Source: Nitrospirota bacterium | GTDB lineage: Bacteria; Nitrospirota; Nitrospiria; Nitrospirales; Nitrospiraceae | Reading direction: 5' to 3' | Assembly: GCA_016219645.1 (NCBI GenBank) | Contig: JACRLR010000010.1 | Span: 64,552-128,551 of the forward strand | Length of the DNA: 64,000 nucleotides | In this document: piece after piece, positions 1,491 through 58,131 of the stretch | How positions within the stretch are numbered: position 1 is the stretch's first letter | How the letters are laid out: the number at the start of each line of letters is the position of its first letter | Translations under genes and position numbers: made by a program | The notes under the pieces: generated by a model | Database searches by the model: none | Seen by the model: only the letters and a program-made list of their open reading frames with translations | Told to the model about the DNA's origin: nothing

Positions 1491-1606
1491 TATATCCTCA
1501 CGAAGTATGTGCCATGGCGCAAAGTATGTTATCCCTGTTTGACGTCATCAAACATGTGGCGGCGACTATAGCACGCGGTTTTTTCACACGCAAAGCTGGG
1601 AGAGAC

Positions 1607-1703
1607 GGAACAATACCCGTGTCGGCCTTTTGCTCCCGGAACGCGCACGATCGGAATGTGCTCGTTCGACGGCCGCAGTCAGACCGAACACGCGTACTGT
1701 TCC
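1607..1703. repeat. Family A palindromic element
   Basis: Arms beginning GGAACAATACCCGTGT and ending ACGCGTACTGTTCC are complementary apart from scattered mismatches. They enclose the core seen elsewhere in the window (CCGGAACGCGCACGATCGG followed by TGTGCTCGTTCGACGGCC). The length (97 bp) and sequence closely match the innermost units at 40097-40193 and 45014-45110. Confidence 0.75.
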
Positions 1704-1745
1704 AGGTAAGGACAAACGAGCTTGGGGGAGTTGTTTACTTTGTTT

Positions 1746-1844
1746 GAGGGATGGTCCGGATGAGTCCCCCACTGCGCGCGTCCAACGAGGGCTTTCTGAA
1801 GCCGCGCGTTGCGCGAGCACGGGGGGCTCACCGGACCGTCCCTC
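1746..1844. repeat. Family A palindromic element upstream of threonine aldolase
   Basis: The left arm GAGGGATGGTCCGGATGAGT pairs with the right arm, which ends CACCGGACCGTCCCTC. Between them is the conserved core GCGCGCGTCCAACGAG...GCGCGTTGCGCGAGCAC. It sits in the leader of the downstream gene, ending about 50 bases before its start codon. Confidence 0.8.
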
Positions 1845-1894
1845 CCCGTGCTAGAATGCGCCGCCACAATCTTGCGGCGTCCCAAAGGACCACT

Positions 1895-11773: not shown

Positions 11774-11806
11774 CCCTCGTACGCCTTTCCTATTTCATAT
11801 CTCTCT

Positions 11807-11902
11807 GAGGGGTAGCCTGGGTGATCCTCTAGTGCGCGTGTCGAACGAGCACCTTCTGAGTGTGCGCGTTCCGCGAGCACGAGGACGACTAGGCTACCCC
11901 TC
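11807..11902. repeat. Family A palindromic element between convergent genes
   Basis: GAGGGGTAGCCTGGGTGATC pairs with the arm that ends CTAGGCTACCCCTC, enclosing the GTGTCGAACGAGCAC...GCGTTCCGCGAGCAC core. It is followed by TTTT and lies between the stop codons of the convergent ompH-like and rhodanese genes, so it could serve as a bidirectional terminator. Confidence 0.8.
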
Positions 11903-11911
11903 TTTTCCCGC

Positions 11912-38700: not shown

Positions 38701-38706
38701 AGGAGA

Positions 38707-38801
38707 GAGGGCAGACTAGATGCCTCCCGTGCTCGTGCAACGCGCGGTCTGGGAAGACCCTCGTTGGACACGCGCAATAGGAGACCATCTAGTCCGCCCT
38801 C
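38707..38801. repeat. Family A palindromic element (inverted core)
   Basis: GAGGGCAGACTAGATGCCTC pairs with GACCATCTAGTCCGCCCTC. The core is in the opposite orientation to that at 1746 (GTGCTCGTGCAACGCGCGG ... CTCGTTGGACACGCGC). It starts seven bases after the IPT/TIG gene's stop codon. Confidence 0.8.
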
Positions 38802-38960
38802 AAGGAAGAAGGTGAAGAGCGGTGGTCGCTCGATGCGCGCAGTGAAGAGCAACCTTGGCCGCTCCTTTGGAGAGCGGTAGAGGATTGGAATGTGCTCGTT
38901 CGACGCGCGCAATCGAGGATCGACCAGGTTACCCTTGAGGGGGGGGGGGAATAGGAGGTA
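38802..38960. repeat. Partial family A units ending in an 11-G run
   Basis: Half-elements are joined here: GGTCGCTCGATGCGCGCAGTGAAGAGC, then GGAATGTGCTCGTTCGACGCGCGC. The CAAGG and CCTTG ends are complementary. A homopolymer of eleven G residues lies at 38939-38949, followed by GGAGG. Confidence 0.6.
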
Positions 38961-39278: not shown

Positions 39279-39806
39279 TCACACCTCACGTCTATCGTCC
39301 TTCCTACTCGGCTTCTGATGGACCCAGGTATGGGGATCCGTCGCGTCCGCAAGATAGGCTTGCCCGAATCCCAGGACCAGGTGCGCGCCCTCTAGCCGAA
39401 GTTCCCAGAGAGAAAAATCCCCGAAGCCAAACAACATGGCCGATTGGGGAAAGCGAGCCAAGTACCGCTCCTTCACTTCTTCGTAGATCGGCGCACCAGC
39501 ATCCAACAACACAGCCTCGCCTTGAAGATTCATCCGCCGCAGGGCCAGCGGATTCTTTCCTGGCCTGTCAGGCTCCGAGACAAACAGTCCGACACGGGGG
39601 TCGCGCGACAGATGTTCGCTGTGCAACGCCAGGCGGCTTACATGAATATAGGCACGTGCCCAGTGTTCGCCAATAACATAGGGTACATGCGAACCAAACG
39701 GCCTCCCGTCTCGAAGCGTCAGCAGAACCCCCGTACGGACCTCCCCGGTCAGCTTCTCCCACGCAGTCTGAACCTCTTCATTCGACAAAGCTTCAGACAT
39801 TGCCAT
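39279..39806 (-). CDS. Pyridoxamine 5'-phosphate oxidase-like (FMN-binding split barrel) protein
   Basis: A 175-residue split-barrel flavoprotein. TGVLLTLRDGRPFGSHVPYV, ALHSEHLSRDPRVGLFVSEP and RMNLQGEAVLL fit the HugZ/PPOX family, in which FMN or heme is bound at the dimer interface. FGFGDFSLWELRLEGAHLVLGFGQAYLAD at the C-terminal end is the HugZ-like tail. A heme-related or general reductase role is possible; the exact substrate is not evident. Confidence 0.83.
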   Translation of the reverse strand: MAMSEALSNEEVQTAWEKLTGEVRTGVLLTLRDGRPFGSHVPYVIGEHWARAYIHVSRLALHSEHLSRDPRVGLFVSEPDRPGKNPLALRRMNLQGEAVLLDAGAPIYEEVKERYLARFPQSAMLFGFGDFSLWELRLEGAHLVLGFGQAYLADATDPHTWVHQKPSRKDDRREV

Positions 39807-39900: not shown

Positions 39901-40308
39901 AGGGGGTGGCCTGGACGATCCTCGATTGCACGCAACTTTCTCACCCGCCCACCCGAGCGCGCCAAGACGCGCTCTTTACCCAAGCGAGCACCTTCTGATT
40001 CCCAAACTTTCCAAGAGAGAGTAGGCAGATTGTTCTTTACTGCGCGCATCGAGCGACAGAACTGTTCCCTCCAAGCTTGCTCGCTTGCCCTTGTCTGGAA
40101 CGGTACCCGTGTCAGGCCTGACTGCGGCCGTCGAACGAGCACATTCCAATCGTGCGCGTTCCGGGAGCAAACGGTCGACACGGGTACCGTTCCGCCCGTT
40201 TATCGTGGGGGCTCTGCGAGCAAGAAGAACGGTCTGCCTACTCCCTCGCATCGTTCTGAGGCCACGCGCTTTGCGCGAGCACAGGGGACTCACCGGGTCA
40301 CCCCCCCC
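39901..40308. repeat. Three-level nested family A palindrome
   Basis: The outer arms (GGGGGTGGCCTGGACGATCC at 39902; CTCACCGGGTCACCCCCCCC ending 40308) enclose a middle palindrome at 40021-40241 (arms GTAGGCAGATTGTTCTT and AAGAACGGTCTGCCTAC). The middle palindrome in turn encloses an inner 97-base palindrome at 40097-40193 (arms GGAACGGTACCCGTGTC and GACACGGGTACCGTTCC). Each level has its own copy of the GCGCG core flanks, so units appear to have inserted into the cores of older units. Confidence 0.8.
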
Positions 40309-40362
40309 TGCTGGAGGACTTTATCAACAGTCTGCTTGCAAGCGTTCACGTACTGCACTCAC

Positions 40363-40620
40363 CTACGCCTCCTGCATGCGCACGAACTGACGCGCCGCGA
40401 CCAGATCCTGTCTGGTGCAGAGCTGCTTCTCACGTAACAGATGCTCCAGCGCCGCAATCCTGGCGGTCATCTCTGGCAACATGATATCAACCTGCTCACA
40501 CAGGTCTTGCAGCCGTTTGTTGAGCGCAGAATCTCCTCGCTTCGCAGCAGATTTCTTCCTCGCCCGTCCAACTGCCCGACCTTGCACTCGATTCCGTGAA
40601 ACGATTTTCTTGGTTGCCAT
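40363..40620 (-). CDS. Small basic/coiled-coil protein
   Basis: An 85-residue protein. Residues 1-30 are strongly basic (KKIVSRNRVQGRAVGRARKK) and about 35-70 predict a helix or coiled coil (LQDLCEQVDIMLPEMTARIAALEHLL). GGAGGAACT precedes the ATG, a good ribosome-binding site. No known domain. The composition suggests nucleic-acid or ribosome association. Confidence 0.6.
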   Translation of the reverse strand: MATKKIVSRNRVQGRAVGRARKKSAAKRGDSALNKRLQDLCEQVDIMLPEMTARIAALEHLLREKQLCTRQDLVAARQFVRMQEA

Positions 40621-44081: not shown

Positions 44082-44900
44082 TTGAACAGAACAACGCTCG
44101 TTGCCACATTCATTGCGGTAACTCTGATTGGACCCCCTACCTCATTCTTCGCAGAAGCGAGCGGGAGATTTACCTTAGGCTATCCCGGTGGATCATGGAT
44201 TGGCCACATGTTCTTCGGAACGACAAGCTGCTACGCTCAGACTACGGATGCCGATACGGCTGTTCCCGAAACCACCACCGCCCCCACCGCTCCCACTACC
44301 CCCGAGAGTTCCAGCTCTGCCGGAATCCTTCTGATCCTCCTGCTTCTGGGAGTTGCGGCACTGGTTTATTTCCTCAAAATACAACGACCTTCCCTCCCAG
44401 ACTTTTCCGGGATTACAGGTCGCGACCCATCCATCGACAATCTGCCGGCAAGGCGGTCCGGTACCACCAGGCAGAAACTGTCAGCCGATAGCATCACTTC
44501 CATTGATAAAGCAGCCTTCCAACAACTCCTGACCGACGTTCAACGGGCCTGGAGCACACAGGACCTGACCGAATTGCGGCAGTTCGTCACGCCGGAGATG
44601 CTGAACTATTTCAGCGCCGCCCTGGCCGATAATACCAGTCAAGACATCCGGAACCATGTGGAGGATGTCGTGCTCCTCCGTGCGGAGATCCTGGAAGCCT
44701 GGACTGAACAGGCAACGCAGTACGTGACAGCGGGACTTCGCTGGAGTGCCCGCGACTATAACGTATCCCTGACGAAGCAGCGCGGTGAACCAGGCTATAT
44801 TGTCGAAGGCAGCGAGGAGAAGCCGACCGAATCCGGCGAAGCCTGGACCTTCATGCGATCCCCAGATGGGAAATGGCTGCTCTCAGCGATTCAGCAGTAG
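44082..44900 (+). CDS. Tim44-like domain membrane protein
   Basis: The TTG at 44082 follows AAGGAACT and gives 272 residues. A signal-like segment at the N-terminus (about 5-27), a Thr/Ala/Pro linker, a membrane helix (about 80-100, GILLILLLLGVAALVYFL), then a soluble C-terminal domain with DKAAFQQLLTDVQRAWSTQDL and LRQFVTPEMLNYFSAALAD. This is the bacterial Tim44/MRPL45 family, which binds membranes or precursor proteins. The translocase link is not demonstrated in bacteria. It is divergent from the RCC1 gene. Confidence 0.83.
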   Translation: MNRTTLVATFIAVTLIGPPTSFFAEASGRFTLGYPGGSWIGHMFFGTTSCYAQTTDADTAVPETTTAPTAPTTPESSSSAGILLILLLLGVAALVYFLKIQRPSLPDFSGITGRDPSIDNLPARRSGTTRQKLSADSITSIDKAAFQQLLTDVQRAWSTQDLTELRQFVTPEMLNYFSAALADNTSQDIRNHVEDVVLLRAEILEAWTEQATQYVTAGLRWSARDYNVSLTKQRGEPGYIVEGSEEKPTESGEAWTFMRSPDGKWLLSAIQQ

Positions 44901-44903
44901 GAA

Positions 44904-45250
44904 GGGATGGGGCCTGATCATCTTCTGTGCTCGCGCAACGCGCGGCCTCAGAATGATGCGAAGGAGTAGGCAGACCGTTCTTCTTGCTCGCAGAGCCCCC
45001 ACGATAAACGGGCGGAACGGTACCCGTGTCGACCGTTTGCTCCCGGAACGCGCACGATCGGAATGTGCTCGTTCGACGGCCGCAGTCAGGCCTGACACGG
45101 GTACCGTTCCAGACAAGGGCAAGCGAGCAAGCTTGGAGGGAACAGTTCTGTCGCTCGATGCGCGCAGTGAAGAACAATCTGCCTACTCCTTCTGGGAGAG
45201 TCGAAGAATCAGAAGGCCCTCGTTGGACGCGCGCAGTGGAAACCACACCA
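44904..45250. repeat. Nested family A palindromes, inverted near-copy of the 39.9-40.3 kb array
   Basis: The middle unit at 44966-45186 is 221 bases, the same length as 40021-40241, and is its reverse complement with few differences; the inner unit 45014-45110 is 97 bases as well. The similarity extends beyond the arms, for example AGAATGATGCG...CGCGCGG against ATCGTTCTGAGG. The outer arms are not complementary here, so this copy lacks a complete outer level. Confidence 0.8.
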
Positions 45251-45275
45251 GCCGCCTCGCTGGATGCAGGTGAAA

Positions 45276-45365
45276 ACTCAAGTTCCGCCTCGTTCAACGG
45301 CCGCACGTAGACCAACATGGGTGCCCTTCCAAGAAGACAAACGAGCAAGCTTGGAGGGAGCATTA
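45276..45365. repeat. Partial family A unit
   Basis: GCCTCGTTCAACGGCCGC and AGACAAACGAGCAAGCTTGGAGGGA repeat pieces of the nested arrays (compare CAAGCGAGCAAGCTTGGAGGGA at 45120). No complete pair of arms is present. Confidence 0.55.
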
Positions 45366-45475
45366 TAGAAAATTCTCGTCCGATGCGCGCAACTGCGCCC
45401 CCACCCGATAGTTGCTTTCCAAATAAATTAAGAATACTGTTCCCGAAATTCGCCTTCAATGCTCGGGAATAGATC

Positions 45476-46871: not shown

Positions 46872-47125
46872 GAATGGGGGCTGATTGATCTTCCACTGCG
46901 CGCGTCCAACGAATGCCGGTTCATCTGGTCTATCTTGTCTATCTGGTTTGTCTGGTTGATCGGGCCGGAAACTCATACGGAAGAACCAGGCGGACCAGAA
47001 AGACTCGCCAGTCAGACAGACGAACCCGGGGGAGTGGTCAGATTGCCCTTTACTGCGCGCATCGGACGAGCACAGTTTCACCGTGCGCGTTCTGCGAGCA
47101 AGAAGGGCACCTGGCCGCTTCTCCC
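46872..47125. repeat. Family A units with an inserted family C hairpin
   Basis: GGAATGGGGGCTGATTGATC starts a family A left half that stops at TCCAACGAATG. There a pentamer hairpin (46919-47022, TCATCTGGTCTATCTTG.../...AACCAGGCGGACCAGAAAGA) begins. A complete family A palindrome follows at 47028-47125 (GGGGGAGTGGTCAGATTGCC / CACCTGGCCGCTTCTCCC). The left arm is the same sequence as the arm at 58025. Confidence 0.7.
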
Positions 47126-47133
47126 TTATCCCC

Positions 47134-52368: not shown

Positions 52369-52467
52369 GAGGGGAGCGGTCACACAGTCCTTTTTGCTCG
52401 CAGAGCCCCACGGTGAAGCAGTGGTCGCTCGATGCGCGCAGTAGAGGACAATCTGACCACTCCCCTC
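52369..52467. repeat. Family A palindromic element
   Basis: GAGGGGAGCGGTCACACAGT pairs with CTGACCACTCCCCTC. The core has GCTCGCAGAGCCCC and GGTCGCTCGATGCGCGCAGT. Similar arms occur at 47028. Confidence 0.75.
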
Positions 52468-52610
52468 TAATATGTTTGAGGGGAGAATGAAAAATGATGA
52501 GTGGCCTGACAATTCTTAGTACTCGCACAACGCGCCCGGGTTCGTCTGTCTGACTGGCGAGTCTTTCTGGTCCGCCTGGTTCTTCCGTACGTTTCGAGTG
52601 AACATTTAGC
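52468..52610. repeat. Half family A unit joined to a half family C hairpin
   Basis: GAGTGGCCTGACAATTCTTA and ACTCGCACAACGCGCCC are a family A left arm and core. TTCGTCTGTCTGACTGGCGAGTCTTTCTGG then runs as in the family C hairpin of 46919-47022, with no partner arm. Confidence 0.55.
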
Positions 52611-57515: not shown

Positions 57516-57805
57516 ATTTCCTCTCCGCTACGCTCAATCCACCGCGAGGATGAAAGTAGACACTCTGTCCTTTCTATAACATCAACATACAGAAAACAAA
57601 ATGGAAGCATTATGCGTGAGAGGTGCCTGTCAAATGCTGCAATAATGAGCAGATGACTGAGGTCTCATATGAGAGCGGCAGGGACTATGACGTATAACTG
57701 GAGGGGTTGATCTGGTCTTCTTTGCTGTCCGAACGGGCTACCCATATGAACAGAGTGAGGGGCAGAACTGAATGGATAGTGCCAGATAGTTTCCCATCGC
57801 CTCAG
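57516..57805. other. Spacer without visible gene
   Basis: The interval between the ORF6N start and the family A repeats contains no credible frame. TTGTCC-like and TATAAC-like hexamers near 57560-57590 could hold the ORF6N promoter, but none stands out. Confidence 0.4.
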
Positions 57806-57996
57806 AAGAGGGCTCCCTAGATGGTCTCTCACTGCGCGTGTCCAACGAATGCTGGTTCATCTGGTCTATCTCGTCAATCTGGTTGGTCGAACCTGAAATT
57901 CATCCGAAAAACCAGACAGACCAGAAGACCAGCCCACCAGATAGACAAACCCAGGCGCGTTCCGCGAGCAAGAAGGGCACCTGGCCGCTCCTCCCC
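57806..57996. repeat. Family A unit interrupted by a family C hairpin
   Basis: GGCTCCCTAGATGGTCTCTC and ACTGCGCGTGTCCAACGAATG begin a family A unit. A pentamer hairpin (57853-57952, TGGTTCATCTGGTCTATCTC) then starts at the same core position as in the 46.9 kb copy. The unit resumes with GCGCGTTCCGCGAGCAAGAA. Confidence 0.7.
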
Positions 57997-58024
57997 ATCC
58001 TTCGAAACTCGCTCGCTATCTTCA

Positions 58025-58121
58025 GGGGTGGGGCTGATTGATCTTCCACTGCGCGCGTCCAACGAGGGGAGTCCACGACCGCGCGTTGCGCGAGCACAGA
58101 AGATCGATCAGCCCCCACCCC
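58025..58121. repeat. Family A palindrome, near-perfect arms
   Basis: GGGGTGGGGCTGATTGATCT and AGATCGATCAGCCCCCACCCC are complementary with only a couple of mismatches. The core between them is GCGCGCGTCCAACGAGGGGA...GCGCGTTGCGCGAGCAC. It sits 10 bases before the cupin stop codon and could terminate that transcript. Confidence 0.85.
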
Positions 58122-58131
58122 ACTCCCATCT

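Follow-up and report, generated by a model that had tools for sequence, protein, structure and literature searches.

Nested hairpin repeats that occupy one another's apical loops in the genomes of Nitrospiraceae

The nest at positions 39901-40308 of the window (the whole stretch of 64,000 nucleotides of Nitrospirota DNA that was analyzed) consists of three stacked members of one interspersed hairpin-repeat family. The unit of this family is a hairpin of ~105 nt that lacks coding capacity and in which variable, covarying arms surround a conserved asymmetric core; this core is made up of a 5' part TGCGSSCRTCSARCGA, an apical loop and a 3' part GCGYTNCGSGAGCA, and the layout is common to the outer, middle and inner units. 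We consider it probable that these non-coding hairpins have been passively mobilized into loops by a recombinase acting on a folded strand and that gene conversion subsequently reshuffled the composites.

Results

The nest lies in a gap of ~560 bp between two minus-strand genes, a pyridoxamine-oxidase-like gene (39279-39806) and a small gene (about 40365-40619). An earlier note had described three nested palindromes in this gap, and repeat search and folding together establish that they are real and correctly placed. The repeat search recovered the arms of the middle unit (40015-40037/40225-40247, 87% complementary) and of the inner unit (40097-40113/40177-40193, 100% complementary), and the outer pair (~39902-39927 with 40282-40305; 20 pairs, -36.6 kcal/mol) comes from the fold. 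The 408-nt stretch folds with -193.1 kcal/mol on the plus strand (z -7.75) and with -193.9 kcal/mol on the minus strand (z -5.04), and on each strand 0 of 100 shuffles were equally stable. As the note had it, each inner unit is located in the apical core of the next unit out. Three elements had been overlooked: a small hairpin next to the middle unit (39955-39974), a single arm (~40308-40338) belonging to another palindrome outside the other three and, on the opposite strand at ~44.9-45.4 kb, the nest in a second copy.

On the plus strand, the left arm of the outer unit (39901-39927) pairs with its right arm (40282-40308) in the fold. The 5' core of this unit is damaged: alignment with other copies and folding reveal at 39927-39990 a core remnant (TGCACGC) together with a module that forms a hairpin of its own, GAGCGCGCCAAGACGCGCTC, at 39955-39974. 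The outer loop sequence CCTTCTGA follows at 39991-39998, left of the middle unit; its NTTCTGA is repeated at 40253-40259 and is a candidate target-site duplication. The middle unit comprises a left arm (40015-40040), a 5' core TGCGCGCATCGAGCGA (40041-40056), a 3' core GCTCTGCGAGCA (40211-40222) recognized by alignment and core matches, and a right arm (40223-40247), the arms being supported by repeat search and arm folding. Its loop holds the inner-unit leader CCTCCAAGCTTGCTCG (40057-40095), which copy comparison found to be common to stand-alone copies, then the inner unit itself (40096-40194), and finally the loop remainder TTTATCGTGGGG (40195-40210), which alignment and guest/loop typing assign to the loop class targeted by the inner guest type. 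The inner unit is complete and unoccupied, with arms, loop, a 5' core at 40123-40138 and a 3' core at 40152-40169, and matches the covariance model with 82.4 bits at 40094-40195. The remainder of the outer loop together with the outer 3' core, identified by alignment of copies, occupies 40253-40281. We infer the unit boundaries, since closely related strains yielded no case of an insertion.

A comparison of repeat flanks places the right arm of a further enclosing type of palindrome at 40308-40338; its left arm is unrecognizable here. This palindrome, also present at L087:1938-2070, is longer and of a different type (TAGCAGGCTGTT.AAAAAG..CC.CCAGCA), often surrounds outer units of the family and is also found empty. 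A module of ~48 nt (window 39941-39988), consisting of CACCCGCCCACCC and a GC-rich hairpin, reappears within the left halves of outer units as well as in the palindrome that surrounds them (L051, L053, L054, L083).

The levels of the nest also exist apart from one another. A search of the window's own genome with the 408-nt stretch gave 74 matches at many loci. At 12 loci of this genome that were aligned with the window the middle unit is free of the inner unit, and its core is then unbroken (TGCGCGCATCGAGCGACCACYGCTTTATCGTGGGGGCTCTGCGAGCA); the pair of middle and outer units is unoccupied at more than 10 loci; and the inner unit stands alone elsewhere with its characteristic leader.

The unit is a conserved folded structure with covarying arms and a conserved core that contains invariant unpaired bases. 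Among 55 unoccupied units, compensatory changes are found in 14 of the 19 predicted pairs, including pairs inside the conserved core (G-C/C-G and G-C/A-U), and the T and the C of the unpaired TC position are invariant. Double-change cells number 214 against 74 +/- 7 in shuffles, and paired cells amount to 93%, with the real structure outperforming all slid controls (34-52%). The arms have diverged widely between subfamilies and have retained their pairing. Such strong covariation, which extends to core pairs, is what functional RNA structures, e.g. processing or termination signals, duplicated as modules would display, and the plus strand of the units folds ~3 kcal/mol better on average. However, 30 units compared with the direction of transcription of the neighboring genes revealed no clear bias in orientation; Rfam, searched with the window and 12 loci, returned only three tRNAs at gathering scores; and no unit position is conserved between species at the two loci compared. 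Arm wobble pairs number 596 versus 480 by strand among all units and show no clear strand bias in the reduced, non-redundant set (278 versus 252). A functional RNA is an improbable explanation of the family.

The units are intergenic and reach tens to hundreds of copies per genome. With one mismatch allowed, the 5' core has 214 matches in its own genome of 3.65 Mb and the reversed control has none. A covariance model derived from the units was used for genome counts and detected between 22 and at least 127 copies in every one of 32 genomes from the genus. In an even sample across the phylum, the repeats were present in 44 of 47 genomes from the same taxonomic family (Nitrospiraceae, a name that we infer from those of the matching records) and in 0 of 151 others. 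The exact-core matches among those listed, all in genome contigs, belong to Nitrospira or Nitrospirota, and all are metagenome-assembled genomes. No match to the family was obtained in the viral contigs, phages and plasmids searched, which rules against spread by viruses, phages or plasmids. In the window, the model finds further units at 1605-1705 (-), 1745-1845 (+), 11805-11905 (+), 38704-38939 (-), 45012-45263 (-), 47026-47126 (+), 52369-52468 (-), 57805-57996 (+) and 58022-58122 (+).

Nesting follows rules of position, orientation and type. Altogether 83 of 302 units lie within another unit's apical loop, nearly all in the same orientation, in 43 combinations of guest and host arms that do not equal 43 events, because some pairs may share one origin and have later been reshuffled by recombination. 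Among 287 units from all loci examined, same-strand host cores are found in 78 (3') and 63 (5') cases and opposite-strand cores in 1 and 1. The spacing between guest arm and host 3' core is tightly clustered, at 17-22 nt for 67 of the 83 and at 6-7 nt for nine. In an unbiased sample of 464 kb in all (a 400-kb stretch and the 64-kb window), a host 3' core on the same strand lies at most 60 nt from 7 of 30 unoccupied units, an excess of ~14-fold (P about 4e-7) over the 1.6% expected for random intergenic positions. These numbers bear on the proposal that the units are ordinary MITEs of a DDE transposon, inserted in random orientation and nested through build-up in intergenic space. The units share with MITEs their inverted-repeat arms, here covarying terminal inverted repeats, as well as their non-coding nature and high copy number, but insertion is in one orientation where both are expected, sites are loop-specific, nesting greatly exceeds the random intergenic expectation and no transposase gene recurs next to units. 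We regard this proposal as close to untenable. A single insertion orientation speaks against a transposase that acts on symmetric ends.

The class of the target loop is predicted by the arm type of the guest. The inner guest type of the window is in TTTATCGTGG loops in 14 of 16 cases, the middle guest type and its relatives are mostly in CTTCNGAGG loops, and for a third guest type the loop is wholly replaced in 9 of 9 cases. At two loci (L049 and L052) a further unit is inside the inner type. Guest and host have the same arm type in 1 of 83 cases versus 7.3 expected (P 0.003). The earlier suggestion that the element inserts repeatedly into its own core is accordingly sound for the family, in which nesting in apical loops is far above chance, and fails at the level of the subfamily. 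Because the same types stand alone at unrelated sites, guest types move or have moved independently.

The same note had taken the nest as a relative age series. In 19 pairs, the arms of hosts pair less well than those of guests (-30.0 versus -38.9 kcal/mol, P 0.008), which would follow from a greater age of the hosts or from host folding having ceased to matter, and to this extent the idea receives support; against it, the middle and inner units form a block that is shared with the 45-kb copy and the outer context differs. This second nested array (44896-45391, minus strand), delineated by repeat comparison, has five successive 5' cores, all on the same strand, and other outer arms. The block is repeated near 45.1 kb on the other strand with only 2 differences over 40019-40244, and its flanks of ~75 bases have 15 differences between the two copies. 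That the middle and inner units are 99% identical within differing outer arms means that the nested block was moved or converted as one piece. Since the 40-kb and 45-kb copies have leaders of the same kind, conversion is no less likely than insertion.

Comparison with relatives does not bear out an age series at the level of the locus. Synteny around the 40-kb nest is kept, and in eight syntenic relatives with the adjoining small gene the arrays are absent from the gap. One relative (G017) has lost the left half of the array, so that it carries the inner unit but only the right half of each of the middle and outer units; identity to the window is 92% for the inner part and 95% for the right part, against 83% for the neighboring gene. 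The orthologous site is thus either empty or multi-level, and a single-level state was found in none of the relatives compared. The appearance of the whole array at once and without intermediates, which the note had named as evidence against its series, is in part what the 40-kb locus presents. At the 45-kb site, the array is absent in two relatives that share the downstream gene. The nested order is the order of assembly of the composite and not a dated history of the locus. In two relatives (L013 and L016, in G023 and G021) the same gap is instead occupied by ~1 kb in which CTGGTTTGT-rich sequences border a small predicted protein gene.

Could homologous recombination alone account for the nests? 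Under this explanation, insertion into loops would be rare and old, a few ancient nestings having been copied as composites via gene conversion between short cores. The near-identity of the 40-kb and 45-kb blocks in diverged surroundings of the same type, the existence of units with a mixture of arms and cores, and the recurrence of identical guest/host junctions in different hosts all agree with it. At least three guest/loop classes, the 43 arm combinations and the occurrence of guest types alone at unrelated sites speak against it, and we find recombination alone unlikely. Two paralogous nests (L071 and L072; G000:C16, about 231.5 kb and 226.3 kb) illustrate another change: in L071 the sequence between the inner and the outer 3' core seems to have been deleted, leaving a unit with mismatched arms, and deletion of this kind is a likely route of nest collapse.

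Discussion

Combining the covariation, nesting and locus data, we suggest that the units would be passively mobilized by a recombinase that recognizes a folded single strand, either on the lagging strand or in a cruciform, and links the element to a defined loop sequence in a strand-specific manner; that gene conversion between copies would spread and reshuffle the composites; and that deletions between repeated cores may erode them. Recognition of a folded single strand is suggested by the dependence on loop sequence together with the conserved pairing. The middle unit is flanked on either side by CCTTCTGA-like sequence, a candidate target-site duplication; for the inner unit none is clear.

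The mobilizing enzyme may be lost or host-encoded. Among the genes next to units at the loci examined, neither an autonomous transposon partner nor a mobilizing enzyme was found; transposase-type genes do not recur there and only housekeeping orthologues do. IS110 was rejected as the mover, with none in the own genome or in the other unit-rich genomes G025, G026 and G028. A RAYT (Y1 tyrosine transposase) acting on hairpins, as for REP elements, would fit a core with a CGTC-like tag and an imperfect palindrome, and orientation-specific insertion suits a Y1 enzyme. The window's genome has a single Y1 (RAYT-like) gene (L087; G000:C20:51681-52004), but it sits between inverted TTCTTGACTTTGCACT copies, a TIR-flanked type unrelated to the units, with no unit nearby, and three unit-rich, 99%-complete genomes (G025, G026, G027) are without a Y1 gene. 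We therefore reject RAYT as the mover and hold this explanation to be highly improbable. More specifically than the folded-strand recombinase outlined above, we raise tentatively, as a possibility that the evidence does not favor strongly, that the subfamilies are mutually parasitic with a guest-to-loop code and are inserted on one strand by a hairpin-specific recombinase, neither RAYT nor IS110, that was ancestral to the Nitrospiraceae.

Like REPs, REPINs and BIMEs of the GTAG and CGTC superfamilies, the units are intergenic, high-copy, transposase-less hairpins (PMC3733652, PMC3116915), and they share with REPs a CGTC-like tetranucleotide at an unpaired position. CGTC-tagged REPs, however, are 20-40 bp long with a stem of 8-9 bp that starts with AT next to CGTC (PMC3733652, PMC3116915), whereas the units are ~105 nt with variable covarying basal arms and a conserved apical core, lack such an AT-starting stem and have GAACG/GAGCG as the stem after CGTC; their C(G/A)TC is inside the conserved core with TC unpaired, not at the unit end, and no RAYT gene is flanked by the unit. 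REP dimers have been recorded within longer palindromes (PMC3733652, PMC3116915), but REPs form head-to-head dimers whereas the units nest in loops on the same strand. The short palindromic repeats of Volvox organelles similarly include palindromes in palindromes and composites of which some occur at several places, but the parts of that report available to us concern organelle DNA with repeats of ~50 nt, loops of 3-5 nt and unrelated sequence, and describe no guest-host loop specificity (PMC2670323). IS1397, IS621 and ISPpu9 likewise insert site-specifically into a palindromic repeat, at fixed positions in REPs, but they encode a transposase and target another family, whereas the guests here are non-coding and of the same family as their hosts (PMC1525189).

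In the open-access literature searched, outside which most subscription journals lie, we found no report of nested, mutually targeting bacterial hairpin families and no description of nested repeats in Nitrospira. Integron attC sites are hairpins of variable sequence that are recognized through their structure and unpaired bases. The likeness of the units to attC, a variable hairpin with unpaired bases, is a functional analogy only: the attC core is GTTRRRY whereas the unit core reads GTTCCGS, and attC sites are arrayed behind an integrase whereas the units are dispersed and nested.

The family provides a bacterial system in which non-coding repeats serve one another as landing sites and leave a readable record of insertion, and in which the structure, orientation and target specificity of the units are all measurable from sequence. 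In the genomes sampled, it is limited to a single bacterial family with a central part in nitrification, and because of this confinement a comparison of genomes should be able to find the enzyme responsible.
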